A stretch of DNA of 64,000 nt from Pseudomonas hamedanensis (lineage in GTDB: Bacteria > Pseudomonadota > Gammaproteobacteria > Pseudomonadales > Pseudomonadaceae), in contig NZ_CP077091.1 in NCBI RefSeq assembly GCF_014268595.2, positions 1,634,501 to 1,698,500 on the forward strand. Reading direction: 5' to 3'. Position 1 is the first letter of the stretch, and each line of letters starts with the position of its first letter. This document shows positions 43,148-57,258 of the stretch, one piece after another. Below the pieces are notes generated by a model. The model made no database searches. It saw nothing but the letters and a program-made list of their open reading frames with translations, and was not told the origin of the DNA. The translations under genes were made by a program, and so were the position numbers.

Positions 43148-43903
43148 TCAGGGCTTACGCAGCAAATAGGTATCCATGATCCACCCATGCTGCGCCCGCG
43201 CCGCCTTGCGCACCCGTTCAATCTCGTCTGCGACATCCGCCAGCCGGCCGCTGAGCAGAATTTCGTCCGGCGTGCCCAGGTAAGCCCCCCAAAAAATCTC
43301 CGTCTGCCGATCCGCCACCCGCTGATACGCGTCCTCGGCGTCAAGCATCACCACCAGACTGTCCGCCTCACTCGCCTGCCCCGCCGCCAGGCGACGTCCC
43401 GTGGTGATTTCCACCGAGCGCCCGATCGCGTTCAGCGGCACTTTGTGTTGCGCCGCCAAGGCCTGAACGCTGGTGATGCCAGGAATGACGTCAAAATCAA
43501 AGACACACGTCCCGGCAGCCAGGATCGCCTGGAGGATGCGCACCGTGCTGTCGTATAACGCCGGGTCGCCCCACACCAGAAAACCGCCGCACTGACCGTC
43601 GGCCAATTCGTCATTGATCAGACGCTCGAAGGTCTGCTGCCGGGCGCGGTTCAGCTCATCGACGCTTATGGCGTAGTCGACATCGCCACGCTCGCGTTCC
43701 GGGCTGTGCGCTTCGACGAAGCGGTACGTGGGCTGCGTGATGTAGCGCTCGCAGATCTCGCGGCGCAAATCGATCAGCTTGTGCTTGCGCTGACCTTTAT
43801 CCATCAGGAAGAACACATCGACCCGATTCAGCGCTTTCACTGCCTGCATTGTGATGTAGTCCGGATTCCCGGCACCGATACCGATCACCAGCAAGTGTTT
43901 CAT
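43148..43903 (-). CDS. cobF: Precorrin-6A synthase (deacetylating)
   Basis: 251 aa SAM-dependent tetrapyrrole methylase. In the aerobic cobalamin pathway CobF methylates C-1 of precorrin-5 and releases acetate. The fold's start MKHLLVIGIGAGNPDYITMQ and the SAM loop FLVWGDPALYDSTVRIL are clear. It overlaps the phosphatase gene at 43903 by one base. No other cob gene is in the window, so it is an isolated cobalamin gene here. Confidence 0.93.
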   Translation of the reverse strand: MKHLLVIGIGAGNPDYITMQAVKALNRVDVFFLMDKGQRKHKLIDLRREICERYITQPTYRFVEAHSPERERGDVDYAISVDELNRARQQTFERLINDELADGQCGGFLVWGDPALYDSTVRILQAILAAGTCVFDFDVIPGITSVQALAAQHKVPLNAIGRSVEITTGRRLAAGQASEADSLVVMLDAEDAYQRVADRQTEIFWGAYLGTPDEILLSGRLADVADEIERVRKAARAQHGWIMDTYLLRKP

Positions 43904-44472
43904 CAGCGTGCTCCTTGGAGGTCAGCCCCAGGCAAACGTAACCGCCAGAGACCGTTGAACTGCAACTCGATAGTCGACAGCGGTTCGACATCAATCGCAT
44001 TGAACGCCGCGCCCTGCATCACGTGTAGCAAAGCCGCACGCATGACGTAAGGATGGGTCACAGCAACCACATGCCCCGGATTGAGCTGAACTTCACACAA
44101 CCAATTCGCGACCCGTGCACGCAACTGCGCCACTGACTCGCCGCCATGAGGGGCGGCCTGCGGATCGCTCAGCCAGCGCTGCAACGCATCGGCCTCGCTC
44201 GCCTGCAAATCCTTGAGCGTTCGGCCCTGCCAGCGCCCCCAATCGCAATCGCGCAACGCTCGCTCCACTTGAGCATCCGCACCGAACCACGCGGCAGTCT
44301 GCCGGGTACGCAGTTCCGGACCGCAGATCAGCCGGCGTGCGGCGCTGAAACGTGCAGGAAAAAAGTCGGTCCCCTGACAGGAATTTTCAACAGGCTCATC
44401 AGTAGGAAATATCGCCAATTTTTGTGCGACGGTTCGCGCATGGCAGATCAATGTCAAACGGCTGCTTTGCAC
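43903..44472 (-). CDS. Histidine phosphatase family protein coupled to cobF
   Basis: 189 aa. Phosphoglycerate-mutase-like fold: the N-terminal motif reads LICHARTVAQ instead of the usual RHGxT, so the first phosphate-binding Arg is Cys and Gly is Ala, while the catalytic His is kept. Later GPELRTRQTA, GGESVAQL and the second His in VAVTHPYVMRAAL are present. The position upstream of and overlapping cobF suggests a role in corrinoid metabolism such as alpha-ribazole phosphate removal (inference). It starts with GTG at 44472, with GAGTGAAAG upstream. Confidence 0.8.
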   Translation of the reverse strand: MQSSRLTLICHARTVAQKLAIFPTDEPVENSCQGTDFFPARFSAARRLICGPELRTRQTAAWFGADAQVERALRDCDWGRWQGRTLKDLQASEADALQRWLSDPQAAPHGGESVAQLRARVANWLCEVQLNPGHVVAVTHPYVMRAALLHVMQGAAFNAIDVEPLSTIELQFNGLWRLRLPGADLQGAR

Positions 44473-44794
44473 ATGCTTTCACTCGGTTGAAGGTTATTGA
44501 AAATCAAGGAGGTACCGCCGTTTTTTGGAGTAGACCGACGGAAACAGGGGGCCTCATGGTTATGCACTGTAGCGCTGGCAAGCGCAAAGACGGCAATTTC
44601 GCACACTGTCGTAGGCGATGGACTACAAGGTAGATCGACTTACGTGTAGCCCTTTTGATACGGGCTGCTTGCCCTGTTTCGGGGCCGCTTAAACAGCTAC
44701 AAAAATTCACTAGACATGTAGCCACAGTTACATAAATACTCTTTTAACGGATTGTGAAGCGAATTCAACAACCCCTCATCCAGCAGGAGCCCGG
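44473..44794. other. 322-bp divergent regulatory region before the RpiR gene
   Basis: Lower G+C than its surroundings, no convincing gene. It holds several TGTAGC/GCTACA elements: an inverted pair GCTACA-N15-TGTAGC at 44696-44722, a TGTAGC at 44645-44650 followed by GGGCTGC, and ACTACAAGGTAG at about 44625. RpiR-family regulators often bind near their own gene, so these are candidate operators. I see no cobalamin riboswitch consensus on the cobF side. Confidence 0.4.
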
Positions 44795-45649
44795 ATGCCC
44801 CCTCTTAGAGATCTGATCACCAACCCCGGCCTGGATCTTACGCCGTCGGAGCGCAAAGTCGTTCGCGCGCCGCTTGATCAGTATCCACGCAATGGCCTTG
44901 GCCCGATGGCGCGGCTGGCCGAACACGCCGGCGTCAGTGACCCGACCATCGTCCGGCTGGTAAAAAAGCTCGGTTTCAGCGGCTATGCCGAATTTCAGGA
45001 TGCCTTGCTCAGCGACATGGACCATCGCCTGCGTTCGCCACGCACGCTGTTGCAACCGCGCGCCCAGCACAATAAAGACGACGTCTGGGGCCATTATCTG
45101 GGCGAGAGCCATCGCTTGCTGGTAGACACCCAATCGCTGACCCAGCCGGAAGACGTGCGCATCCTCACCGAATGGCTGCTCGACACCCGGCATCAGGTGT
45201 ATTGCTTTGGCGGTCGCTTCAGCAGCCTGATGGCCACCTACCTGCTCAACCATCTGCGTCTGCTGCGTCCGGGCTGTTTTGCTTTGGAAGACAACGCACT
45301 GCTGCCTGACCGGCTGTTCGACCTGCAACGTCAGGACGTGGTCCTGGTGTTCGACTATCGCCGCTATCAGACCCAGGCCCTGCGCGTGGCCGCGGCGGCA
45401 AAAAACCACAATGCCCGGGTGGTGTTGTTCACCGACATTTATGCCTCGCCACTGCGCGAAATGGCCGACCTGATCATCAGCGCACCGGTGGAATCGGCGT
45501 CGCCCTTCGACACCATGGTGCCGGCGCTGGCACAGGTCGAGGCGCTGATTGCCTGCCTGACCCAGCGCGGCCCGGATCTGGCCGATCGCCTGGAAGGCAT
45601 CGACGCCCTGCGCAACGACTTCGCCACCCACCTGCTGGAGGATAAATAA
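44795..45649 (+). CDS. MurR/RpiR-family transcriptional regulator
   Basis: 284 aa. N-terminal HTH_6 domain (1-75; MARLAEHAGVSDPTIVRLVK, KLGFSGYAEFQDAL) and a C-terminal SIS domain (about 120-260; VYCFGGRFSSLMATYLLNHL) that would bind a ligand. It heads a same-strand cluster running to 52021, with 2 bases to the next gene, and presumably senses its substrate. The SIS ligand is classically a sugar phosphate, but RpiR proteins beside amino-acid genes are also known. Confidence 0.9.
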   Translation: MPPLRDLITNPGLDLTPSERKVVRAPLDQYPRNGLGPMARLAEHAGVSDPTIVRLVKKLGFSGYAEFQDALLSDMDHRLRSPRTLLQPRAQHNKDDVWGHYLGESHRLLVDTQSLTQPEDVRILTEWLLDTRHQVYCFGGRFSSLMATYLLNHLRLLRPGCFALEDNALLPDRLFDLQRQDVVLVFDYRRYQTQALRVAAAAKNHNARVVLFTDIYASPLREMADLIISAPVESASPFDTMVPALAQVEALIACLTQRGPDLADRLEGIDALRNDFATHLLEDK

Positions 45650-45651
45650 GG

Positions 45652-46296
45652 ATGTTCAGCCTTCCCCACCGCTCGCCGCGGGATCTGCCGTTTGTCACCG
45701 ATCACACGGCATTGCTCCTGGTTGACATGCAGCGTGCCTGGCTCGAACCACAGTTCGATCCCCACCTCAATGACCCGGACGCGGCGTATTTCCTTGGGCG
45801 TGCCCGTGGGCAGGTCATACCCAATCAGCGGCGCTTGCTCGGGGCTTTTCGTCAGGCCCGGCAAAACGTCCTGCATACCTTGATCGAAAGCCTGACCGCC
45901 GATGGCCGCGACCGCTCGCTGGACCACAAGCTGTCGGACATGCACCTGCCCAAGGGCAGCCCGCAGGCACAGGTAATCGCCGAGCTGACTCCGCTGGAAA
46001 ATGAAGTCGTCTTGCCGAAGACCTCCTCCGGCGTGTTCAACTCGACCGCCATCGACTATGTGCTGCGCAACCTCGAAACCCGCCACCTGATCATTGCCGG
46101 CATCGTCACCGACCAGTGCGTCGACATGGCCGTGCGCGACGCCGCCGACCGTGGCTACCTGGTGACGCTGGTCGAAGACGCCTGCGCCACCTACAGCGCC
46201 GAACGCCATCACGCCTGTCTGAATGCAATCAAGGGTTACTGCTGGATCACCGACACCGCCACTGTGCTCGGCCGTCTCCAGGAGATGCAGCCATGA
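45652..46296 (+). CDS. Isochorismatase-family cysteine amidohydrolase
   Basis: 214 aa. The catalytic triad of the cysteine-hydrolase family is visible: Asp25 (LLVDMQRAW), Lys123 (LPKTSSGVF) and Cys156 (TDQCVDMAVRDA). Cys rather than Asp/Gly at that site points to a C-N hydrolase (nicotinamidase, N-carbamoyl-sarcosine or biuret hydrolase type) rather than a true isochorismatase. Translationally coupled to the neighbours (2-base gap before, 4-base overlap after). The substrate is probably an amide or ureide handled by this cluster. Confidence 0.88.
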   Translation: MFSLPHRSPRDLPFVTDHTALLLVDMQRAWLEPQFDPHLNDPDAAYFLGRARGQVIPNQRRLLGAFRQARQNVLHTLIESLTADGRDRSLDHKLSDMHLPKGSPQAQVIAELTPLENEVVLPKTSSGVFNSTAIDYVLRNLETRHLIIAGIVTDQCVDMAVRDAADRGYLVTLVEDACATYSAERHHACLNAIKGYCWITDTATVLGRLQEMQP

Positions 46297-47624
46297 GCGC
46301 CCGCCTGACGCCGCTGCCGATGACGACCCTGGTGACCACCGACCTGATCGGCATCACCCGGGGCCGCTCGTTTCCCACCGATGAGCTGGAGCATTATGAA
46401 GTGGCCGGTTGCGGCTGGGTGCCGGCCAACAGCGCGTTGACCCCGCAAGACATCATTGCCTCAACCAACCCGTGGGGCGCGTATGGCGACTTGCGCCTGA
46501 TTCCCGACCTGAGCAGCCGCGTCACCGTCGGCACTGGCCCGGACGCCGACGCGCCGACGCTGGACTTCATTCACGGCGACATTCGCGAGACCGATGGCCG
46601 ACCGTGGGGCGCCTGCCCGCGCACGTTGCTGCGCGATGAAATCGAGCGTTATCGCGAGACGCTGGGCTTGCAGGTCAATGCTGCCTTCGAACACGAATTC
46701 AACCTGCACGCGGGCGTTGCCGAACATTCGGCATTTTCCCTGGAAGCGCAACGTCAGGGCGCCGAATTCGGCGGCTGGCTGCTCAGCGCTTTACGCGCCG
46801 GCGGAGTCGAGCCGGAAATGTTCCTGCCTGAATACGGCAAGCATCAATACGAAATCACCTGCCGGCCGACGCTCGGCGTGGCCGCGGCAGACCGCGCGGT
46901 GAACGTGCGCGAGATCAGCCGCGAGATCGCCCGGCAGATGGGCCTGGCGCTGAGTTTCGCGCCGAAGACCGCCGCCAATGCCGTGTGCAACGGCGTGCAT
47001 TTGCACATCAGTCTGCTCGACCTCGCCGGCCAGCCGGTGCTGTACGACGCCGGCACCATCAATGGCCTGTCGCAGATTGGCCAACACTGGGCCGCTGGCG
47101 TCTTGCACTATTTGCCGGCCTTGTGTGCGTTCACTGCACCGACGCCGGTGTCGTACGAGCGCTTGCAGCCGCATCACTGGAGCGCGTCCTACGCCTGCCT
47201 GGGGCAACAGAACCGTGAAGCGGCGCTGCGCATCTGCCCGACGGTGACCCTGGGCGGCAAGTCCGTGGCCCGGCAGTTCAACCTGGAGTTCCGCGCCATG
47301 GACGCCACCGCCTCGCCACACCTGGCCATGGCGGCACTGCTGATCGCCGGCCGCCTGGGCATTGAGCAACGGCTGGCGCTGAACGCAATCACCGACGAGA
47401 TTCCCGATTCACTCAACGACGAGCAACGCAAGGCCCGGGGCATTGTTGCCCTGCCCGCCTCGCTGGCGCAGGCACTGGATTGCCTGCGCGACAGCGGCGC
47501 CTTCAACGAATGGCTGCCCAAGCCGTTGCTCGACACCTACCACGCCCTTAAAACCGAGGAACTGGCGCTGACGGAACAGCTCTCGCCCGCTGACTTGTGT
47601 GAGCACTATGCACGCCTGTACTGA
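46293..47624 (+). CDS. Glutamine-synthetase-like gamma-glutamyl ligase
   Basis: 443 aa. GS-fold ligase with the acid-rich metal site (NAAFEHEFNLH), HLHISLLD and the family end motif EFRAMDATASPHLAMAALLIAG. The N-terminal beta-grasp is short (TTDLIGITRGRSFP). In pseudomonads such GlnA paralogues (PauA/SpuI type) attach gamma-glutamate to amines for catabolism; this one is likely a ligase for a polyamine, amino acid or other amine. Start at 46293 overlaps the hydrolase (ATGA). The amine is not identifiable from sequence. Confidence 0.85.
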   Translation: MSARLTPLPMTTLVTTDLIGITRGRSFPTDELEHYEVAGCGWVPANSALTPQDIIASTNPWGAYGDLRLIPDLSSRVTVGTGPDADAPTLDFIHGDIRETDGRPWGACPRTLLRDEIERYRETLGLQVNAAFEHEFNLHAGVAEHSAFSLEAQRQGAEFGGWLLSALRAGGVEPEMFLPEYGKHQYEITCRPTLGVAAADRAVNVREISREIARQMGLALSFAPKTAANAVCNGVHLHISLLDLAGQPVLYDAGTINGLSQIGQHWAAGVLHYLPALCAFTAPTPVSYERLQPHHWSASYACLGQQNREAALRICPTVTLGGKSVARQFNLEFRAMDATASPHLAMAALLIAGRLGIEQRLALNAITDEIPDSLNDEQRKARGIVALPASLAQALDCLRDSGAFNEWLPKPLLDTYHALKTEELALTEQLSPADLCEHYARLY

Positions 47625-48360
47625 ATCCGCCGAACTGGGGTTATACACCCGACCGGTCTATAACCTTAGTCGCGAGCAGTCGACGACGCCGTTGATTCTC
47701 GTGTGCGAGCACGCCAGTCGCTACATCCCCAAGGCCCTGAACAATCTGGGCCTGGACGATGCCGCGGCGGCTGAACACATCGCCTGGGACATTGGCGCCC
47801 TCGAACTGGCCGAGCAACTGTCGCAGCAACTGAATGCGACGCTGTTGAGCGCCAACTACTCGCGACTGCTGATCGACCTCAACCGCCCACGCCACGCGCC
47901 CGACAGTATTCCGACGCAGAGCGAGATCTATCAGATTCCGGGCAACCGCGAGCTCGACGAAGCCACCCGCGAGTACCGCCGGCAGAAGCTGTTCAAGCCG
48001 TTTCATGCGCGCTTGCAGACGCTGATCGACGAGCGCATTGCCCAAGGCCAACCGGTGCGGGTCGTAGGGATTCACAGTTTCACCCCGGTGTATTACGGCC
48101 AGCCGCGACCGCTGGAAATCGGCGTGCTGTTCGGCCAGGCGCAGGCCTACGCCCAACGCGTACTCGACGGTCTCGACAAACACTCGCTGAAAGTGGCGGG
48201 CAACCAGCCGTACCGGATCGACCCGCTGGGCGATATGACAGTGCCGGTTCACGGTGATGCCCGGGGCCTGGACTCGGTGCTGATCGAGGTGCGCAACGAT
48301 CTGCTGCGCAACCGCGAAGACGTGTCGCGCTGGGCCGATTACCTCGCACCACTGTTGTAG
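47608..48360 (+). CDS. N-formylglutamate amidohydrolase-like enzyme
   Basis: 250 aa (253 from a GTG at 47599). The Zn-dependent FGase/HutG-II fold is marked by VCEHASRYIPK (31-41), LIDLNRPRHAPD and VGIHSFTPVYYG. The family removes the N-acyl group from glutamate. The start overlaps the ligase gene by 17 bases. Histidine-utilisation genes are absent here, so the physiological acyl group may be something else, such as the succinyl group made by the downstream transferases (inference). Confidence 0.88.
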   Translation: MHACTESAELGLYTRPVYNLSREQSTTPLILVCEHASRYIPKALNNLGLDDAAAAEHIAWDIGALELAEQLSQQLNATLLSANYSRLLIDLNRPRHAPDSIPTQSEIYQIPGNRELDEATREYRRQKLFKPFHARLQTLIDERIAQGQPVRVVGIHSFTPVYYGQPRPLEIGVLFGQAQAYAQRVLDGLDKHSLKVAGNQPYRIDPLGDMTVPVHGDARGLDSVLIEVRNDLLRNREDVSRWADYLAPLL

Positions 48361-48439
48361 GAAAACTCTGCTGACGCTGTAAATGATCGACCGCCATAAC
48401 AACTGAAACGACCGATTGCCAGACAAGGAGTTGCGCTTC

Positions 48440-49789
48440 ATGGAAATTGAAGAATTCGGCTACAAACAAGAGTTGAAACGGAGTCTGACCCTCACCGATC
48501 TGGTGGTTTACGGGATGATCTTCATGATCCCCATCGCCCCGTTCGGTGTGTATGGCTACGTCAACGCCGAAGCGCCGGGCATGGTGCCGCTGGCGTACAT
48601 CATCGGCATGGTGGCAATGCTGTTCACGGCGCTGAGCTACGGCAGCATGGCCCGCGCTTTTCCGATTGCGGGCTCGGTGTATTCCTACGCGCAGCGCGGC
48701 CTGAATCAACACGTCGGTTTCATCGCCGGCTGGCTGATGCTGCTCGACTACCTGCTGATTCCGCCGCTGCTGTATGTGTATGCGGCGATGGCGCTGAACC
48801 ATCTGTATCCGGACATTCCCAAGGTCGGCTTCATTCTGGCGTTCCTGGTCAGCGCGACGTTCGTCAACCTGCGCGGCATCACCTTCACAGCGCGGATGAA
48901 CATTGTCTTTCTGCTCGCGCAGTTGGTGGTCCTCGGCATTTTTCTGTTCTACGCCTGGAATGCCCTGCACAGCGGCGGCGGCAATGGTGAGTTGACGCTG
49001 GCGCCGCTGTATCACCCGGAAACCTTCAACTTCGCCCTGCTAATGCAAGCGGTGTCGATTGCGGTGCTGTCATTCCTGGGCTTCGATGCGATTTCCACGC
49101 TTGCCGAGGAAATCAAGGGCGACCCGGGCAAGAGCGTCGGCAAAGCGGCGTTGATCACGCTATTGGTGATGGGGGTGATATTTGTCGCGCAAACCTGGAT
49201 CGCCACCGACCTGGCGGCCGGCATGGGCTTCAAGTCCGCCGACACCGCGTTCTATGAAATCGCCGAAATCGCCGCCGGCAGTTGGCTGGCCACGCTGACC
49301 GCCGTGGCAACCGCTCTGGCCTGGGGCGTCGCCGTGGCAATCACGTCGCAGGCTGCGGTGTCGCGCCTGCTGTTTGGCATGGCCCGCGACGGCAAACTGC
49401 CAAAAGTGCTCGCCAGGGTTCATCCGAAACACAACACACCGTACCTGAGCATCTATCTGGTGGCGGTGCTGTCGCTGGTGATCTGCTATCTGTTCATCAA
49501 CTCGGTCGACACCCTCACCTCGCTGGTCAACTTCGGCGCGCTCAGCGGTTTCATGCTGCTGCATCTGACGGTCATCAACTACTACTGGCGTCGGCAGAAG
49601 TCCGGTCGGGTGGTACGCCATCTGCTCTGCCCGGCGATCGGCTTCAGCATCGTTGCGGCCATCATGTACAACATGGGCGTCGATGCCCAGAAACTCGGGC
49701 TGATCTGGATTGCGTTGGGTCTGGTCTATCTGTTTTTCCTCAACAAGCTTGGCGCCAGTACGGCGCTGCCTGACCCGAGCAACGGCTGA
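48440..49789 (+). CDS. APC-superfamily amino acid/amine permease
   Basis: 449 aa with 12 hydrophobic spans. N-terminal RSLTLTDLVVYGMIFMIPIA and the loop ALSYGSMARAFPIAGSVYSY match PuuP-like/APC transporters. AAGGAG lies 10 bases before the ATG at 48440. It follows the amidohydrolase by 79 bp and is the import step of the cluster. Its mid-protein signature SFLGFDAISTLAEEIKGDPG is typical. Substrate probably an amino acid, amine or polyamine. Confidence 0.92.
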   Translation: MEIEEFGYKQELKRSLTLTDLVVYGMIFMIPIAPFGVYGYVNAEAPGMVPLAYIIGMVAMLFTALSYGSMARAFPIAGSVYSYAQRGLNQHVGFIAGWLMLLDYLLIPPLLYVYAAMALNHLYPDIPKVGFILAFLVSATFVNLRGITFTARMNIVFLLAQLVVLGIFLFYAWNALHSGGGNGELTLAPLYHPETFNFALLMQAVSIAVLSFLGFDAISTLAEEIKGDPGKSVGKAALITLLVMGVIFVAQTWIATDLAAGMGFKSADTAFYEIAEIAAGSWLATLTAVATALAWGVAVAITSQAAVSRLLFGMARDGKLPKVLARVHPKHNTPYLSIYLVAVLSLVICYLFINSVDTLTSLVNFGALSGFMLLHLTVINYYWRRQKSGRVVRHLLCPAIGFSIVAAIMYNMGVDAQKLGLIWIALGLVYLFFLNKLGASTALPDPSNG

Positions 49790-49863
49790 CAAGAAAAAGA
49801 GCGGCGTCTGACAACAAATCAGGCGACCGCCGATTTATCGCGTGGACACCGACAGTGATAGTC

Positions 49864-49890
49864 AGGCTTGGCGAACGCGCCAAGCCTTTT
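49864..49890 (+). terminator. Intrinsic terminator inside the cluster
   Basis: Perfect 10-bp stem AGGCTTGGCG/CGCCAAGCCT around AACG, then TTTT, 19 bases before the first succinyltransferase-like start. It would cut or attenuate read-through from the permease. Confidence 0.7.
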
Positions 49891-49908
49891 GATACAGGAG
49901 TTACATCC

Positions 49909-50925
49909 ATGCTGGTCTTACGCCCGGTCGAGCAGAGCGACCTGCCCCAGCTACAGCAACTGGCCCGCGACAGTCTGGTCGGCGTGACCTCGTTGCCTGA
50001 CGACCGCGAACGCCTGCGCGACAAGATTGCCGCCTCCTGCGCTTCGTTCGACAGCGAAGCGGCAGCGCAGGGCCCGGAGAACTATTTTTTCGTCCTGCAA
50101 GACCTCGACAGCCAACAACTGCTCGGCTGCTCGGAGATCCTCGCCACCGCCGGTTTCAACGAGCCGTTCTACAGCCTGCGCAACCGTCACTTCACCAGTG
50201 CCTCGCGGGAGCTGAACATCGAACACGGGGTGCCGGCATTGTCGTTGTGCCATGACCTCAGCGGCCACACCTTGCTGCGCGGTTTCCACATCGATGCGAA
50301 GCTGGTGCGCACAGTATTTTCCGAGCTGCTGTCGCGGGCGCGCCTGCTGTTCATCGCCGCACACGCGCCACGCTTTGCCGAGACGGTGATTACCGAAATC
50401 GTCGGTTACAGCGACGCAGACGGCCATTCACCGTTCTGGGATGCACTGGGCAAACATTTCTTCGACTTGCCCTACCTCGAAGCCGAACGTCTGTGCGGAT
50501 TGCAGAGCCGGACATTCCTCGCCGAACTGATGCCGCAATACCCGATTTACGTGCCGATGTTGCCGCAAGCGGCGCAGGACTGTATTGGCAAGATTCACCC
50601 GGACGGCCAGGAAGCGTTCGACATCCTGGCGCGGGAAGGTTTTGAGACCAACAGCTACATCGACCTGTTCGATGCCGGCCCGACGCTGTATGCGCGCACG
50701 GCGAACATCCGCTCGATCGCACGCAGCCAAATTGTCGCGGTGCAACAACAGCCACGCATCGATGCGCGCGGGCGTTACCTGCTGAGCAACGATGCACTGC
50801 ACGGTTTTCGAGCCGTTGTGGCCGAACTCGATTATCAACCCGATCAACCGCTGTGCCTCACCCCCGCCCTCTGTGCGGCGCTGAACGTGACCGAGGGCAG
50901 CCCGATCCGGCTGATTGCCCTGTGA
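49909..50925 (+). CDS. Arginine N-succinyltransferase-like subunit (AruF type)
   Basis: 338 aa AstA-family acyltransferase (GNAT-like). MLVLRPVEQSDLPQLQQLAR, LVGVTSLPDDRERLRDKI and GYSDADGHSPFWDALGKHFF align by memory with P. aeruginosa AruF, the alpha subunit of the arginine/ornithine succinyltransferase. ACAGGAG precedes the start. It is followed by an AruG-type subunit but not by aruD, aruB or aruE homologues, so it is a second copy outside the arginine operon. The acceptor may not be arginine. Confidence 0.88.
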   Translation: MLVLRPVEQSDLPQLQQLARDSLVGVTSLPDDRERLRDKIAASCASFDSEAAAQGPENYFFVLQDLDSQQLLGCSEILATAGFNEPFYSLRNRHFTSASRELNIEHGVPALSLCHDLSGHTLLRGFHIDAKLVRTVFSELLSRARLLFIAAHAPRFAETVITEIVGYSDADGHSPFWDALGKHFFDLPYLEAERLCGLQSRTFLAELMPQYPIYVPMLPQAAQDCIGKIHPDGQEAFDILAREGFETNSYIDLFDAGPTLYARTANIRSIARSQIVAVQQQPRIDARGRYLLSNDALHGFRAVVAELDYQPDQPLCLTPALCAALNVTEGSPIRLIAL

Positions 50926-50986
50926 ACCGCGCCCGGTTCCGAACCCCACGACAGCGCCCCGCCAGGCGCGCAAAAGGAGTTACAGC

Positions 50987-52021
50987 ATGATTGTCCGTCC
51001 GGTCAAAGTCAGCGACCTGCCCGCCTTGATGACCCTGGTGCAGCAGGCGGGCCCGGGGTTCACGACCCTGCCGGCCAACGAAGACCGCCTCGCTCACCGG
51101 GTGCGCTGGGCACAGCGCGCTTTCGCCGAACAGGTGGAGCGCGCCGACGCCGATTATCTGTTTGTGCTCGAGGACGACGAATCGCGCGTGGTCGGCGTCA
51201 GCGCGATGGCCGGCGCCATCGGCCTGCGCGAGCCCTGGTACAACTACCGGCTCGGCGTAACCGTCAGTTCAGCGCCGGACCTGGGCATTCAAAGGCAAAT
51301 ACCGACGTTATTTCTCAATAACGAGCTGACCGGCCAATCGGAGCTGTGCTCGCTGTTCCTGCGCCATGACCAGCGCGTCGGCAGTAACGGCCGCCTGCTA
51401 TCGCTAGGCCGTCTGCTGTTCGTCGCCGAGTTTCCTCACCTGTTTGGCGAAAAGATGATTGCCGAACTGCGCGGCAATGCCGACGAGCAAGGCTGTTCGC
51501 CGTTCTGGGACAGCCTGGGCCGGCACTTCTTCCAGATGGACTTCAGCCATGCCGACCACTTGTCGGGATTGGGCAACAAAGCCTTTATTGCCGAACTGAT
51601 GCCGCGCCAGCCGCTGTACACCTGCCTGCTCACCGAGGCGGCTCAGGCGGCTATCGGCCAGACGCATCCGAACACTGAACCTGCGCTGAAAATCCTCCAG
51701 GCCGAGGGGTTTGCCCACAAAGGCTACATCGATATTTTTGACGGTGGCCCGGTGATCGAAGCGCCGGTGCGCAATATCCGCACCGTGCGCGACAGCCTTG
51801 AACTGACCCTGAGCCTCGGCAGCCCGGACGATCAGGCGCCGTTGTGGCTGATCCACAACCGCCGTCTGGAGAATTGCCGAATCACCGTGGCCCGCGCCCG
51901 ACGAGTCGGCGACAGCCTGGCGATCGACCGCCTCACCGCCAAACGCCTGCAGTTGCAACCGGGCAATTCGGTGCGGGCGGTGATGCTGCCCCATCAGCAA
52001 CAGCAGGCCGCCGCTGCCTGA
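50987..52021 (+). CDS. Arginine N-succinyltransferase-like subunit (AruG type)
   Basis: 344 aa, homologous to the preceding gene and to AruG (MIVRPVKVSDLPALMTLVQQ, GPGFTTLPANEDRLAHRV, GCSPFWDSLGRHFFQMDF). AAAAGGAG precedes the start. The two subunits are expected to form a heteromer that succinylates the amino group of a substrate using succinyl-CoA. It ends the cluster; the C-terminus is Gln/Ala-rich. Confidence 0.88.
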   Translation: MIVRPVKVSDLPALMTLVQQAGPGFTTLPANEDRLAHRVRWAQRAFAEQVERADADYLFVLEDDESRVVGVSAMAGAIGLREPWYNYRLGVTVSSAPDLGIQRQIPTLFLNNELTGQSELCSLFLRHDQRVGSNGRLLSLGRLLFVAEFPHLFGEKMIAELRGNADEQGCSPFWDSLGRHFFQMDFSHADHLSGLGNKAFIAELMPRQPLYTCLLTEAAQAAIGQTHPNTEPALKILQAEGFAHKGYIDIFDGGPVIEAPVRNIRTVRDSLELTLSLGSPDDQAPLWLIHNRRLENCRITVARARRVGDSLAIDRLTAKRLQLQPGNSVRAVMLPHQQQQAAAA

Positions 52022-52210
52022 GACGCCGCTCCCCCCGTGGCGAGGACTTGCTCGCGTTCGAAGATGAATCCTTTCAGCTCGGGACTGCCATAAACGGCTC
52101 CCCGACAAATTCGTCATGATTATTGACCCACCCGCGTGATAGCCTTTTCACTCTTCGGCGTTGACACCTTTGCTCAAGCCTTTCCATTCCTTTGTATTGG
52201 TGGAACTCGT

Positions 52211-53080
52211 ATGACCAGGCTTTCTCATCAAGATTTGCGCCGTAATTTTCGTCAGTTACTGGCCTCCGACACCTGCTACCACACGGCCTCGGTGTTTGAT
52301 CCCATGTCGGCGCGCATCGCGGCCGACCTCGGTTTTGAAGTGGGGATTCTCGGTGGATCGGTGGCTTCGTTGCAGGTGCTGGGTGCACCGGACTTTGCCC
52401 TGATCACCCTCAGCGAATTCGCCGAACAGGCCACACGCATCGGCCGCGTCGCCCAGTTGCCGGTGATCGCCGACGCCGACCACGGTTACGGCAACGCCCT
52501 CAACGTGATGCGCACCATTGTCGAACTGGAACGCGCCGGCATTGCCGCCCTGACCATCGAAGACACCCTGCTGCCTGCGCAATTTGGCCGCAAATCCACT
52601 GACCTGATCACCGTCGCCGAAGGCGTTGGCAAGATCCGCGCGGCACTGGAAGCCCGGGTCGACACGGAAATGGCGATCATCGCCCGCACCAACGCCGGCA
52701 TCCTGCCGATCCAGGAAATCATCAGCCGCACCCGCCAATATCAAGCCGCGGGCGCCGATGGCATCTGCATGGTCGGCGTGCAGGATTTCGATCAACTGGA
52801 GCAAATCGCCGAACACCTGACGGTACCGCTGATGCTGGTGACTTACGGCAACCCGGCGCTGCACGACGACAAGCGCCTGGCCGAACTCGGCGTGCGCGTA
52901 ACCATCGACGGGCATGGCGCCTATTTTGCGGCGATCAAGGCAACCTACGACAGCCTGCGCGAACAGCGGCAGATCTTCACCCAGGCCTCCGACCTGAGCG
53001 CCACCGAGTTGACGCACACTTATACCCAGCCGGAGGAATACATTCTCTGGGCCAAGGAATACATGAGCGTCAAGGAGTAA
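52211..53080 (+). CDS. Oxaloacetate decarboxylase (PEP mutase/isocitrate lyase superfamily)
   Basis: 289 aa. Very close by memory to P. aeruginosa PA4872, an oxaloacetate decarboxylase: [52 protein letters not shown] and LVTYGNPAL. It lacks the KKCGH catalytic signature of isocitrate and methylisocitrate lyases, consistent with the decarboxylase group. It converts oxaloacetate to pyruvate and CO2 with Mg2+. Start at 52211 after TGGTGGAA. Confidence 0.92.
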
Positions 53081-53099
53081 TGTGAACGCCCTACCGGCG

Positions 53100-53197
53100 C
53101 CTTCGCGAGCAGGCTCGCTCCCACATTTGGTCCGTGGCGGACCCAAAACCTGTGGCCACTTAAGATCCCTGTGGGAGCGAGCCTGCTCGCGAAGGCC
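53100..53197. repeat. Pair of REP elements
   Basis: CCTTCGCGAGCAGGCTCGCT and, about 70 bp on, CTGTGGGAGCGAGCCTGCTC in opposite orientation, between the decarboxylase and the Ig-repeat gene. Confidence 0.8.
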
Positions 53198-53346
53198 AAC
53201 GCTCAGTCACCTTGCTTCTTGACAAGCACAACTCGAACCCGCACCACCCGTCGGATTCAAGCCCGCACCTGTCAGATCCTACAGGTGCGCAAGCCCTCCA
53301 ATACGCGTTAACTCACTCCGTCACCTTTGCCCACGGAGTCAGCGCC

Positions 53347-56300
53347 ATGTCCAGCCCCAGCGAGCCTCTCGTCCTCGCGGAACTCGATATCCCCGGTCGC
53401 ACCGGCCCGGTAGCGGAAACTCCGGTGAAAATCTGGGGCATCAACATCGCGGCCGCGCTGGGCAATTTTCCACTTAATGGTCTGCTGTGCCAGGCGGGTC
53501 CGTGGGGGAACATGGCGGTTGGCGACACATTGACCCTCTATTGGGGCACCGGGCAAAACGTGTGGGTTGAAACCGTCGACAAGATCGAGGTCAACACGCA
53601 GCTCCGTATGTTCGTACCTTCCCGACACATGGTCGATGGCAGGTTCGCAGTGTCGTATACGGTCAAGCCCTTGGGCGGCACGGATCAACCGTCCGAAGTC
53701 ATGCAGGTGCAGGTCAAGCTCACTCGCCCGGGCGGGCACGATGACAACGATGACAGTGGGCATTCCAAGCTGATCATGACGATTCCCAAGGAGATTGCTG
53801 ACGGCGGTATCGACAAGGAAAACGTGGCCGAGGGCGTGCCGATCACCATCGGCAACAACGATGGCACGCCGCCTTATCCCTTTGCCGCGGCGGGCGATGT
53901 TATACGCATCAGCTGGGGTGGCGTTTTTATGTTCAGTGAGCCGCTGACCCAGGAACAGGCCGAAGGCAAAGCGCCGATCATCGTGACCATCACCGAAGCC
54001 GTCATCCGCGAGGCCGGTGATGCGGACTCTCCCGGCGTGGCCGTGGTGTTCGAGGTATACGACTGCGTATTCAACCGCTCCGAGGACTGGAGCCCCGAGC
54101 AGCGTGTGCCGGTGGCGGTGGATGCGACTCGGGCGGACGCGCCGTTGCTCAAGGAAACGCTGAACAATGTACTGGACGTCGACAAGCTGGGCGACGCCAA
54201 TGGCACCGTGCAGATTATCGCCATGGATAAGAACAAGTTCGAGGTCGGTGACCTTGTATTCATCAGGATCAAGGGCACGCCCGTCGAAGGGCCGCCGATT
54301 GATTGGGAACCATCAGCAGGCGTGAAGCTGGAAAGTGTGCCGAGCGTTATGGAAATCATGGCGCCCAACGCCGTGCTGCGCCAGTTGGCCAAGTCGCAGA
54401 TCACCTTGTCCTACCGCCTGGAAAAAGCCGATGCCTCTGCCGATTTACGCTCCAAAAGCCAGTTCATCCATGCCATCGGCGAAATCCGGCGGCTGGCCGC
54501 GCCGATCATGCTGGACGAGAACTCCGGGGCGCTGGACCCGACACTGCTGCAAATCAGTCTCGAGATTCCCTTCGACAAATCCTTTGTCGAAGGCCAGGTC
54601 CTCAAGATAGTCATGCTCGGCACCACGCCAGGCCTCAAGCCCTACCTGCCTGACCTGCCAACGCGCCCCATCACCCACAACGACATCGTCGAGGCGAAAC
54701 CGTTGCAGCACAAGATTGACGGCGAGCATCTGACCCCGGTCAACGGTGGCACGGCCGAGTTCTATTACCAGCAACTGGTCGCCGCCGCGGTGCTTGCCAC
54801 ACTGGACCCGTTCGAGGCCACCCGGGCCGTTCGCGAGTCGATTCACACAAAGATCCTGCAAGTCGGCGAACCGCGCCTGGAACTGCCTGAACCGGTGGTG
54901 GCCGGCGTGGTGGACGGTGTGCTGCCCGCCGACACTGCCGGCACCACCTCGACCGTGCCGTACATCGAAACGGTCGCCGGCGACGAAGTCTTCATGTTCT
55001 GGATCGGTTCGCTCACCGGTGAGTACACCGACTCGATCAAGCTGAACGAGTTCACCGCCGGCAAGGAAGTACCGTTCAACATCGAAGCCAAGTTGATCAA
55101 GAACAATGAAGGCGGAGCGGTGATCGCCCGGTACGAAATCAAGCGCACGGCGGGCGGGACGAGTTATGCCGAGCCGCTGGAGTTCAGTGTTGGGATGGCG
55201 CTGGATCTCACCGCACCCGGTATCAAGGAAGCGCCGAACGGCACCAGCCTCGACCCGTTTGCGGCCAAGGAAGCCCTGACTGCGGTTGTTCCAGCCTTCG
55301 ACAACATGGTCGGCACCCAGTTGAGCGTGACCTGGACCGGCACGGCTGGGCATGGTAGCCACACCACTGTGGCGATCACCGTGACCACGCAAGGGCCTCA
55401 AAACATTGTGTTACCCAACTCGCTTGTCGCACACAACTTGAGCGCATCAGTGACGGTGACCTACAGGGTGATCCACAATGACACGCCCTGGGATTCCAAG
55501 CCGTTTGTCCTGACCGTGCAGCCCATTGCACCGGGCGATACAAACCTGCCGGTTCCGAACATCAATGGAGCGGTGGGCAGCCAGCTGGATGTGGCCAATC
55601 TCGCGGATGACGCGAAAATACAGGTCGCCAAATGGCCCCTCCAGCTCTCCGGCCAGACCATCTGGCTGCGTTACGACGGCATCGGCAAAACGGGTAGCCC
55701 GGTAGAACTCGTGTTCTGGGCCGGGGCAGCGCATCACTATACGGACGGCTTGGTTTATGCCGCGCAGGTTGCATGGCTCCGTGAACTCAAAGATGGCAGT
55801 TCGCTGACGATCACCTTCAAGGTGAATTTTAATGGTGTGGCCGATGCCGGTACGGCGGTGAGTTTTCCGGTGAGGACTTACTTGATCGGCAATGCTATTG
55901 AGCTGGAGCCGCCAAGTATCAAAGAGGCTATCGGCAATTCACTGAATCCGTTTGCCGCCAAGGACACTCTGACTGCGGTTATCCCAGCCTACGACGACAT
56001 GGTCGGCACCCAGTTGAGCGTGACCTGGACCGGCACGGCTGGGCATGGTAGCCACACCACTGTGGCGATCACCGTGACCACGCAAGGGCCTCAGAGCGTT
56101 CCGCTGCCCAACTCGGTGGTGCCCTTCAACCTGGGCAAGCCGGTGACAGTAATCTACACAATAATCAGCAATGGCACGCCCAAGGACTCCAAGCCCTTCC
56201 TCCTGGCGGTGCAACCGATTGCGCATGGCGATCCGCAGCTGGGCATGCCTCTGATCACGCAAGCGACTAACGGCGGTGCGGGTCCCGAGTTCGATGTCAG

Positions 56301-57258
56301 ACAGTTGACCGCGGACGCGACCATCCGTGTAAATAGTTGGCCGCTGATTGCGCTACGGCAATATGTCTGGTTGGAGCTGGAAGGCACCAACAAAGATGAC
56401 AGCGTTTATGCGAAAACATTCTGGCAGCCGCCTGGCGGAACAACCAACGACAGGTGGATCAGCCAAGGCTATTACACGCATCCGATTCCACTGGCCGATC
56501 TGAAGAATCTGAAGGACGGCAGTGAGTTGAACGTGATATTCAAGGCAGGGCTTGTCGGCAGTCAAGCGGTCGGCGAAGCGGTGAGTTTTCCGGTAAAAAT
56601 CTATACCGTTAAGGTCTCCACATTGGAGATCGATACCACTCCTATGGTGCTGGATGGACTTCATGCGTACCTAGCTCCCGCCCCATATACTCCACCCTTT
56701 GAAAAAACACAGTACTTCTTAAGCCTAAACACCCATCAAACCCGTCACGCACAGGGTGGCAGCCCGCCTTACGAGTATGTCTCGTCGGATCCTACCGTCG
56801 CCTCTGTTACAAAAGGCTTAGTGGTGTCGACCGGAAATGGAACGGCAACCATCAGCGTGCACGATACGAAGGATGCAATTGTCAGCTACCAGGTTACCTG
56901 CGAGAACGTCTATGAACTGGTAATGGGACCATCCCCGCAAAACTATGCTCAGGCAATCGCCTGGTTATCAAACATAGGTGCGTCCCTAATTCCGCTCCAA
57001 CCCCCCTTTAATTTAATATTGGCTTATGGTTTTCAACAGACAACCGGACCGCGAGTCGAATATTGGGCAAACTCCAGCAGCTCAGTTTATTATAAAACGT
57101 ATAGTACCGGTCTCCCTGCACAATGGACGCAAGTGCCATTCGTTGCAGCGTTCAACGCCGAAGCCCCCCAGTCGGGTAATTCACTTTTTGTTCCTTTGGG
57201 GTATAGACCAAAGAGTGGAAAAAAATCACAGGTGCCCGACATGCGAGGCATTGAATGA
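53347..57258 (+). CDS. Large Ig-like repeat protein
   Basis: 1303 aa. The ATG at 53347 has ACGGAG upstream; no signal peptide or membrane anchor is visible at either end. The protein is a string of beta-sandwich-like modules rich in Thr, Val and Gly. Two modules of about 231 residues near residues 620-850 and 850-1085 are clear duplicates (each with LTAV(V/I)PA, then VGTQLSVTWTG, then TAGHGSHTTVAITV). Near the C-terminus a bacterial-Ig type 2-like motif (SSDPTVASVTKGLVVSTGNG) appears, followed by a tail of about 120 residues that is more A+T-rich in DNA. It could be a surface or structural protein, but the export route is not visible. Stand-alone gene. Confidence 0.8.
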   Translation: MSSPSEPLVLAELDIPGRTGPVAETPVKIWGINIAAALGNFPLNGLLCQAGPWGNMAVGDTLTLYWGTGQNVWVETVDKIEVNTQLRMFVPSRHMVDGRFAVSYTVKPLGGTDQPSEVMQVQVKLTRPGGHDDNDDSGHSKLIMTIPKEIADGGIDKENVAEGVPITIGNNDGTPPYPFAAAGDVIRISWGGVFMFSEPLTQEQAEGKAPIIVTITEAVIREAGDADSPGVAVVFEVYDCVFNRSEDWSPEQRVPVAVDATRADAPLLKETLNNVLDVDKLGDANGTVQIIAMDKNKFEVGDLVFIRIKGTPVEGPPIDWEPSAGVKLESVPSVMEIMAPNAVLRQLAKSQITLSYRLEKADASADLRSKSQFIHAIGEIRRLAAPIMLDENSGALDPTLLQISLEIPFDKSFVEGQVLKIVMLGTTPGLKPYLPDLPTRPITHNDIVEAKPLQHKIDGEHLTPVNGGTAEFYYQQLVAAAVLATLDPFEATRAVRESIHTKILQVGEPRLELPEPVVAGVVDGVLPADTAGTTSTVPYIETVAGDEVFMFWIGSLTGEYTDSIKLNEFTAGKEVPFNIEAKLIKNNEGGAVIARYEIKRTAGGTSYAEPLEFSVGMALDLTAPGIKEAPNGTSLDPFAAKEALTAVVPAFDNMVGTQLSVTWTGTAGHGSHTTVAITVTTQGPQNIVLPNSLVAHNLSASVTVTYRVIHNDTPWDSKPFVLTVQPIAPGDTNLPVPNINGAVGSQLDVANLADDAKIQVAKWPLQLSGQTIWLRYDGIGKTGSPVELVFWAGAAHHYTDGLVYAAQVAWLRELKDGSSLTITFKVNFNGVADAGTAVSFPVRTYLIGNAIELEPPSIKEAIGNSLNPFAAKDTLTAVIPAYDDMVGTQLSVTWTGTAGHGSHTTVAITVTTQGPQSVPLPNSVVPFNLGKPVTVIYTIISNGTPKDSKPFLLAVQPIAHGDPQLGMPLITQATNGGAGPEFDVRQLTADATIRVNSWPLIALRQYVWLELEGTNKDDSVYAKTFWQPPGGTTNDRWISQGYYTHPIPLADLKNLKDGSELNVIFKAGLVGSQAVGEAVSFPVKIYTVKVSTLEIDTTPMVLDGLHAYLAPAPYTPPFEKTQYFLSLNTHQTRHAQGGSPPYEYVSSDPTVASVTKGLVVSTGNGTATISVHDTKDAIVSYQVTCENVYELVMGPSPQNYAQAIAWLSNIGASLIPLQPPFNLILAYGFQQTTGPRVEYWANSSSSVYYKTYSTGLPAQWTQVPFVAAFNAEAPQSGNSLFVPLGYRPKSGKKSQVPDMRGIE
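55304..56093. repeat. Internal duplication with 97-bp identical block
   Basis: Bases 55304-55400 are identical to 55997-56093 (period 693 bp, 231 codons), while the flanking parts of the two modules have diverged. This indicates recent gene conversion or purifying recombination between the modules. Confidence 0.85.

Follow-up and report, generated by a model that had tools for sequence, protein, structure and literature searches.

A putative gamma-glutamylation operon and an adjacent succinyltransferase pair preceded by a conserved leader in Pseudomonas hamedanensis

Seven consecutive genes on the forward strand of the Pseudomonas hamedanensis chromosome raise the question of whether they encode one catabolic pathway or two independent functions. 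They occupy positions 44795-52021 of a stretch of 64,000 nucleotides (contig NZ_CP077091.1, positions 1,634,501 to 1,698,500), referred to here as the window. An earlier note on this DNA had proposed a new catabolic route in which import, glutamylation, N-succinylation and N-deacylation are joined. Our analysis indicates that the locus very probably consists of two neighbouring, separately controlled units, one (unit 1) comprising a regulator, a cysteine hydrolase, a glutamine synthetase (GS)-like ligase, an N-formylglutamate amidohydrolase (FGase)-family hydrolase and a permease, the other (unit 2) a pair of succinyltransferase subunits, AruF' and AruG'. All seven open reading frames (ORFs) were intact, and the Pfam families fit each gene call. 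The tight arrangement on a single strand that the note described was borne out; in gene order, the junctions are a gap of 2 bases, overlaps of 4 and 17 bases and gaps of 79, 119 and 61 bases. The features are as follows, in window coordinates.

44711..44740, forward strand: candidate promoter of unit 1, TAGACA-18-AATACT, with the ATGTAGCCACAGTTACAT palindrome in the spacer (44716-44733)
44795..45649, forward strand: RpiR-family regulator (RpiR; HTH_6 and SIS, Pfam)
45652..46296, forward strand: isochorismatase-type cysteine hydrolase (Cys; Pfam isochorismatase), with D25, K123 and C156 conserved
46293..47624, forward strand: GS-like ligase (GS; Pfam GS, N_2 and C), predicted to be a gamma-glutamyl amine ligase, homologue of PA5508/PauA7 with W296
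47608..48360, forward strand: FGase-family hydrolase (Pfam), proposed deglutamylase; the longest ORF starts at GTG 47599
48440..49789, forward strand: APC permease (Pfam amino-acid permease)
49838..49914, forward strand: conserved AruF' leader, reaching into the start codon, with the CGACAGTGAT core and a covarying hairpin just 5' of the ribosome-binding site
49909..50925, forward strand: AruF' (AstA family), paralogue of the genome's aruF
50987..52021, forward strand: AruG' (AstA family), paralogue of the genome's aruG

Within Pseudomonas, the arrangement is well kept. In the best 80 of 277 relatives, a set biased towards close relatives, the order RpiR-Cys-GS-FGase-APC-AruF' was found at all 80 loci, with AruG' next in 79; the stretch of the locus lacking an AruG' match (L178) is shortened. 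The gene order is thus not a matter of chance. The two units also occur apart. Among 199 Pseudomonas genomes, AruG' (defined by at least 74% identity, or by 67% together with linkage in G061, the next group reaching at most 65%) was present in 58 and the ligase in 47; 44 genomes harboured both, 14 only AruG', three only the ligase (G048, G059 and G073) and 138 neither. Forty loci were read, covering 20 of the 41 genomes with both units (G061, G172 and the counterpart of our own genome apart): 15 carried AruF'G' without a nearby ligase, four carried unit 1 without AruF'G', and 21 carried the two together. In G172, the units lie at separate places, AruF'G' at L089 and unit 1 at L090. At another locus (L084), AruF' is preceded by an open FGase frame and this in turn by 42 residues matching the end of the ligase (48% identity), remnants that would be consistent with the loss of unit 1 at that place.

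The upstream elements of the two units differ as well. The ATGTAGCCACAGTTACAT palindrome is located upstream of rpiR between TAGACA and AATACT. A promoter scan of 44300-53300 gave this single hit, while shuffled sequences gave 1.7 on average, so the hit count in itself is no evidence. The palindrome, on the other hand, recurs: 94 of 105 regions upstream of rpiR contain TGTA-N8-TACA, and it is missing from all 116 AruF' and all 105 APC upstream regions (rpiR upstream stretches shorter than 150 bases were skipped, and some species are represented twice). Ten of the 11 rpiR regions missing the motif contain a form with one or two changes at about the same place; the eleventh (L149) is less clear. 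The perfect pattern occurs once in the genome. With one mismatch allowed, 12 rows were obtained against 26 for the reversed control, and therefore only the perfect site counts. We consider the palindrome a candidate operator for RpiR. Upstream of AruF', about 77 bases leading up to and over the start codon are conserved in loci with and without unit 1, and CGACAGTGAT was found in 115 of 116 regions; in the window, this leader lies in the 119-base gap between the APC gene and AruF'.

Could an amine nevertheless be both glutamylated and N-succinylated in a single route? In favour of this, 44 of the 47 ligase-bearing genomes also carry AruG', and in Pseudomonas the units are mostly side by side (a raw count in which kinship is ignored). 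The genomes with only one unit and the unlinked units of G172 speak against it, as do the differing upstream elements and the result that neither AruF nor AruG was detected near the ligase by tblastn in any of 57 non-pseudomonad loci, described below. Taken together, these results do not support a single route including N-succinylation, and we regard it as very improbable. Of the route claimed in the earlier note, a glutamylation-based operon for which no named pathway was found remains, and the link to N-succinylation is not supported. Setting the succinyltransferases apart as their own unit prevents a wrong pathway from being drawn.

What, then, might unit 1 do? The ligase matched PA5508 of P. 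aeruginosa (4hpp) with 629.5 bits over residues 4-443. W296 of the ligase aligns with the ammonium-activating flap glutamate (E327) of L011, a GlnA-type protein encoded in the same genome, and at least 97% of 82 aligned relatives retain this tryptophan. The residues for metal, glutamate and ATP (E133, E135, E180, E187, H236, H238, R290, R313 and R334) are likewise found in at least 97% of the 82 sequences. PA5508 itself carries W296 (PMC6529630, PMC5403932), and the roles of the GS-fold residues were taken from PMC6529630. The ligase therefore has the sequence features of a gamma-glutamyl amine ligase of the PauA7/GoaS type, with an amine rather than ammonium as the predicted acceptor. A gamma-glutamylputrescine synthetase (PuuA) or polyamine ligase was rejected as an assignment (253.8 bits against the NF045547 cut-off of 650). 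Seven further GS-family proteins were found in the genome.

Unit 1 presumably corresponds to PA5506-PA5510 of P. aeruginosa. Besides the ligase homologue with its tryptophan, that system has an rpiR-type gene, PA5506, and an APC-family transporter, PA5510; PA5507 and PA5509 we take to be homologues of the cysteine hydrolase and of the FGase-family enzyme, and AruF'G' we assume to have no part in it. The rpiR type of PA5506 is noted in PMC13101494. Plasmid carriers reportedly over-express PA5506-PA5509 as a group (PMC6246594), joint changes in PA5507 and PA5509 accompany the loss of nrdR in a mutant (PMC4409342), and a table on Crc includes PA5508 and PA5510 (PMC6235884). The structure of PA5508 was solved in a 2012 paper, and in the literature available in part to us we found no physiological substrate assigned to it. 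PA5508 is reported to favour bulky amines such as catecholamines over linear polyamines, and is the only one of its paralogues that is not induced by polyamines (PMC6478659). This raises the possibility that unit 1 serves the utilisation or detoxification of primary amines that are bulky or aromatic, with the two hydrolases acting later on the glutamyl conjugate. The Pseudomonas unit, however, has no amine oxidase or dehydrogenase, which a route from amine to acid would need, and the association with a racemase described below would be left unexplained. We consider this explanation unlikely.

In both units, the catalytic positions of the enzymes are retained in the alignments. The best-scoring models for the cysteine hydrolase were biuret amidohydrolase (83.3 bits) and RutB (70.1 bits), and biuret and ureidoacrylate hydrolases were among its best structure matches. 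These relationships would fit the degradation of a ureido compound, the cysteine hydrolase removing a carbamoyl group while glutamylation shields a reactive amine. The scores are nevertheless far below the equivalog cut-offs of the two models (370 and 377.95 bits), and here too the racemase association finds no explanation; a ureido substrate seems to us distinctly unlikely. As to the FGase-family enzyme, an identity as the N-formylglutamate deformylase HutG was rejected (38.8 bits against the TIGR02017 cut-off of 278.75). A second PF05013 protein is encoded at 3.65 Mb and scored 251 bits, compared with 150 for the unit 1 enzyme; it is presumably HutG. A precedent for pairing a ligase with FGase-type deglutamylation is found in the ethanolamine route of Streptomyces coelicolor (GlnA4), proposed also for Chromohalobacter salexigens, in which a GS-like ligase is paired with a member of the FGase family whose proposed role is to set glutamate free. 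The FGase step there is also a prediction. That route differs in having alcohol and aldehyde dehydrogenases and no listed cysteine hydrolase, whereas unit 1 shows the reverse.

Ligase neighbourhoods were also examined in more distant genomes. A scan of the phylum gave 23 matches in 21 of 397 genomes, three of them within the genus; the 20 others were read, and RpiR-Cys-GS-FGase-APC was present in two loci of the same family and one of the same order. A stricter scan (E 1e-90) of 274 genomes of the class returned only our own genome. A scan of the order to which a rhizobial relative belongs gave 71 ligase matches in 62 of 297 genomes; seven of these matches were already in the set, and 40 of the other 64 were taken, mostly by score. 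Together with 17 loci from the phylum scan, these make up the 57 non-pseudomonad loci. Neighbours were counted by tblastn within the fetched stretch (E at most 1e-8, at least 40% of the query). As a result, a cysteine hydrolase was found near the ligase in 52 loci, an FGase in 48, RpiR in 43 and all three in 41; a LivH-type permease was present in 35. Gene orders and strands vary between lineages, so the association exceeds one inherited arrangement. Other steps appear to vary: a DAO-type oxidoreductase was present in four of the 57 loci, and in three (L224, L226 and L228) the ligase has as its neighbour a protein in which APH kinase, peptidase M23 and class-III aminotransferase domains are fused.

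A further neighbour provides a clue to the substrate. At one of these loci (L223), unit 1 ends in a class-III PLP enzyme that matched 6gio, an 'amino acid amide racemase' from Ochrobactrum anthropi also described as an aminocaprolactam racemase, with 781 bits. The next matches were unnamed class-III aminotransferases (501-505 bits) and two entries named alpha-amino-epsilon-caprolactam racemase (490 bits). Relatives of the L223 protein with 85 and 93% identity are present in L221 and L222, and 15 of the 57 loci contain relatives of at least 42% identity (nine loci with relatives below this value were counted apart). In several of the 15, the racemase relative adjoins the ligase, the FGase or a second cysteine hydrolase. 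Their presence near unit 1 suggests that its substrate is an alpha-amino amide or alpha-amino lactam, a tentative assignment that we hold to be possible and somewhat short of probable. In the available open-licence literature, we found no physiological role for a racemase of the 6gio type.

The make-up of the two units, their separability, the type of the ligase and the conservation of the operator-like site and of the leader can be read from the sequences themselves. On this basis we propose the following sequence, in which the order of steps, the substrate, the action of the regulator and the specificities of the hydrolases are what we infer. The APC permease would import an amine, and the PauA7-type ligase would add a gamma-glutamyl group to its amino group at the expense of ATP. 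The cysteine hydrolase would then cut an amide-type C-N bond within the glutamyl-tagged compound, and the FGase-type enzyme would take the glutamyl group off again. RpiR would govern the unit through the palindrome between the -35 and -10 elements. Unit 2, which has a leader of its own, would be a second N-succinyltransferase of the arginine/ornithine type and would act in the ordinary aru route or on a close analogue of the usual substrate. This explanation as a whole, a gamma-glutamylation operon beside a separate succinyltransferase pair, is the one we favour, with a confidence slightly below an even chance. Several observations weigh against it: the frequent co-occurrence of the two units, the reported preference of PA5508 for bulky amines, the absence of the racemase from 42 of the 57 loci and from all Pseudomonas loci searched, and the fact that the neighbour counts for the 57 loci stand without a random-neighbourhood control. 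In our own genome, the only class-III relatives of the racemase have at most 33% identity. The glutamylation half of the earlier note's idea is supported and already known at the protein level, and no named pathway for unit 1 was found in the open-licence literature available in part. Unit 1 can be described as a widely conserved glutamylation operon that lacks a pathway name and for which there is now a concrete substrate hypothesis. The conserved set of partners across Pseudomonadota and the recurring neighbour resembling amide/lactam racemases give a joint testable hypothesis for these enzymes.

We then turned to AruF'G'. The earlier note had stated that the usual partners of such enzymes are missing, which holds locally; on the same chromosome, however, aruC, aruF, aruG, aruD and aruB lie side by side at about 5.05 Mb and pass the curated family cut-offs (aruE was not among the genes looked for), and the presumed HutG is encoded at 3.65 Mb. 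AruF' is 57.7% identical to AruF and AruG' 61.3% to AruG, while the F and G types share 34-37%. Identity is thus higher within than between types, indicating that the two subunits were duplicated together. With 440.9 bits, AruG' exceeds the cut-off of the AstA equivalog TIGR03244 (391). AruF' passes the subfamily model TIGR03243 (385.1 against 284.35 bits) and misses the alpha-subunit equivalog TIGR03245 (420.5 bits, cut-off 458.8), on which the canonical AruF scores 552.7. As in AruFG (1yle), both subunit types are present and a His is kept, at H230 in AruF' and H227 in AruG'; we take the His of this region to be catalytic in AruFG. The pair differs from AruFG in its divergence, its location outside the aru cluster and its own leader. 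From these sequence comparisons, we predict that AruF'G' is a spare copy of arginine/ornithine N-succinyltransferase. In strains FW300-N2E3 and WCS417, aruFG has been tied to the use of citrulline and ornithine, the copy (of two) being unspecified (PMC9007349). FW300-N2E3, a P. fluorescens strain, carries both units (L183).

The AruF' leader consists of the CGACAGTGAT core, a hairpin, a short T run and the ribosome-binding site, in this order. In an alignment of 36 of 37 leaders (L083 left out), all eight pairs of the hairpin show compensatory changes. The whole structure gave 43 compensatory cells, compared with 9.1 in shuffles and a maximum of 14 in slid versions, a comparison favoured by the derivation of the structure from the same sequences. 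A GCGTGG able to pair with the start-codon region forms a helix conserved in 94.9% of cells without compensatory change, which is suggestive only. A covariance model detected the leader at 58.9 bits or above in the same 58 genomes as AruG', and the other matches listed were below 26 bits. The single leader sequence of the window had a folding z-score of -2.0. The terminator scan did not list the hairpin, and a search of Rfam over 43900-53400 with E up to 1 gave no match at the leader, only two sub-threshold miRNA matches at 53.1 kb. The core was rejected as a multi-copy site, having one perfect site in the genome; with up to three mismatches on both strands, 58 matches were found against 10 for the reversed control, and the pattern is loose. 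The leader may act as an attenuator, bind a protein or belong to a promoter; we regard it as a candidate for a new regulatory RNA acting on a gene of amino-acid catabolism. A second hairpin-like stretch (49790-49860, forward strand), conserved in many loci, lies upstream between APC and AruF'.

A bolder combination may also be considered. In this, unit 1 would be an undescribed protect-hydrolyse-deprotect route, in which alpha-amino amides, lactams or lactones first receive a gamma-glutamyl group, the cysteine hydrolase then opens them and the FGase-type enzyme sets them free, a racemase being added in rhizobial relatives; and AruF' would be under an undescribed cis-acting RNA leader, perhaps hiding the start codon. 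Candidate compounds may include aminocaprolactam, ornithine lactam and perhaps homoserine lactone left by signal degradation. Both the leader and the racemase link appear to be new. That both halves hold together, we judge rather unlikely.

As for the surroundings, CobF and a gene of the histidine phosphatase family lie upstream on the opposite strand. Within the locus, the Crc-type motif AANAANAA gave one match, at 49791, immediately 3' of the APC gene. In several relatives, an ORF of about 257 residues lies between AruG' and the PA4872 homologue described below (for instance L110, 14196-14966). The gene for the citrullinase CtlX is often next to aruG (PMC9007349), and this identity was judged unlikely for the ORF, since the L110 copy gave no Pfam match; the P. 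hamedanensis genome itself was not searched for CtlX. Two Rfam miRNA matches far below threshold at 53095-53198 (reverse strand) probably reflect an intergenic palindromic repeat. An ORF of 1348 residues with internal repeats (53212-57258, forward strand) had no Pfam match at E 0.01. Directly downstream of AruG', a homologue of the oxaloacetate decarboxylase PA4872 (52208-53080, forward strand, 468 bits) is encoded; it also follows AruG' in most of the Pseudomonas loci read, whether unit 1 is there or not.

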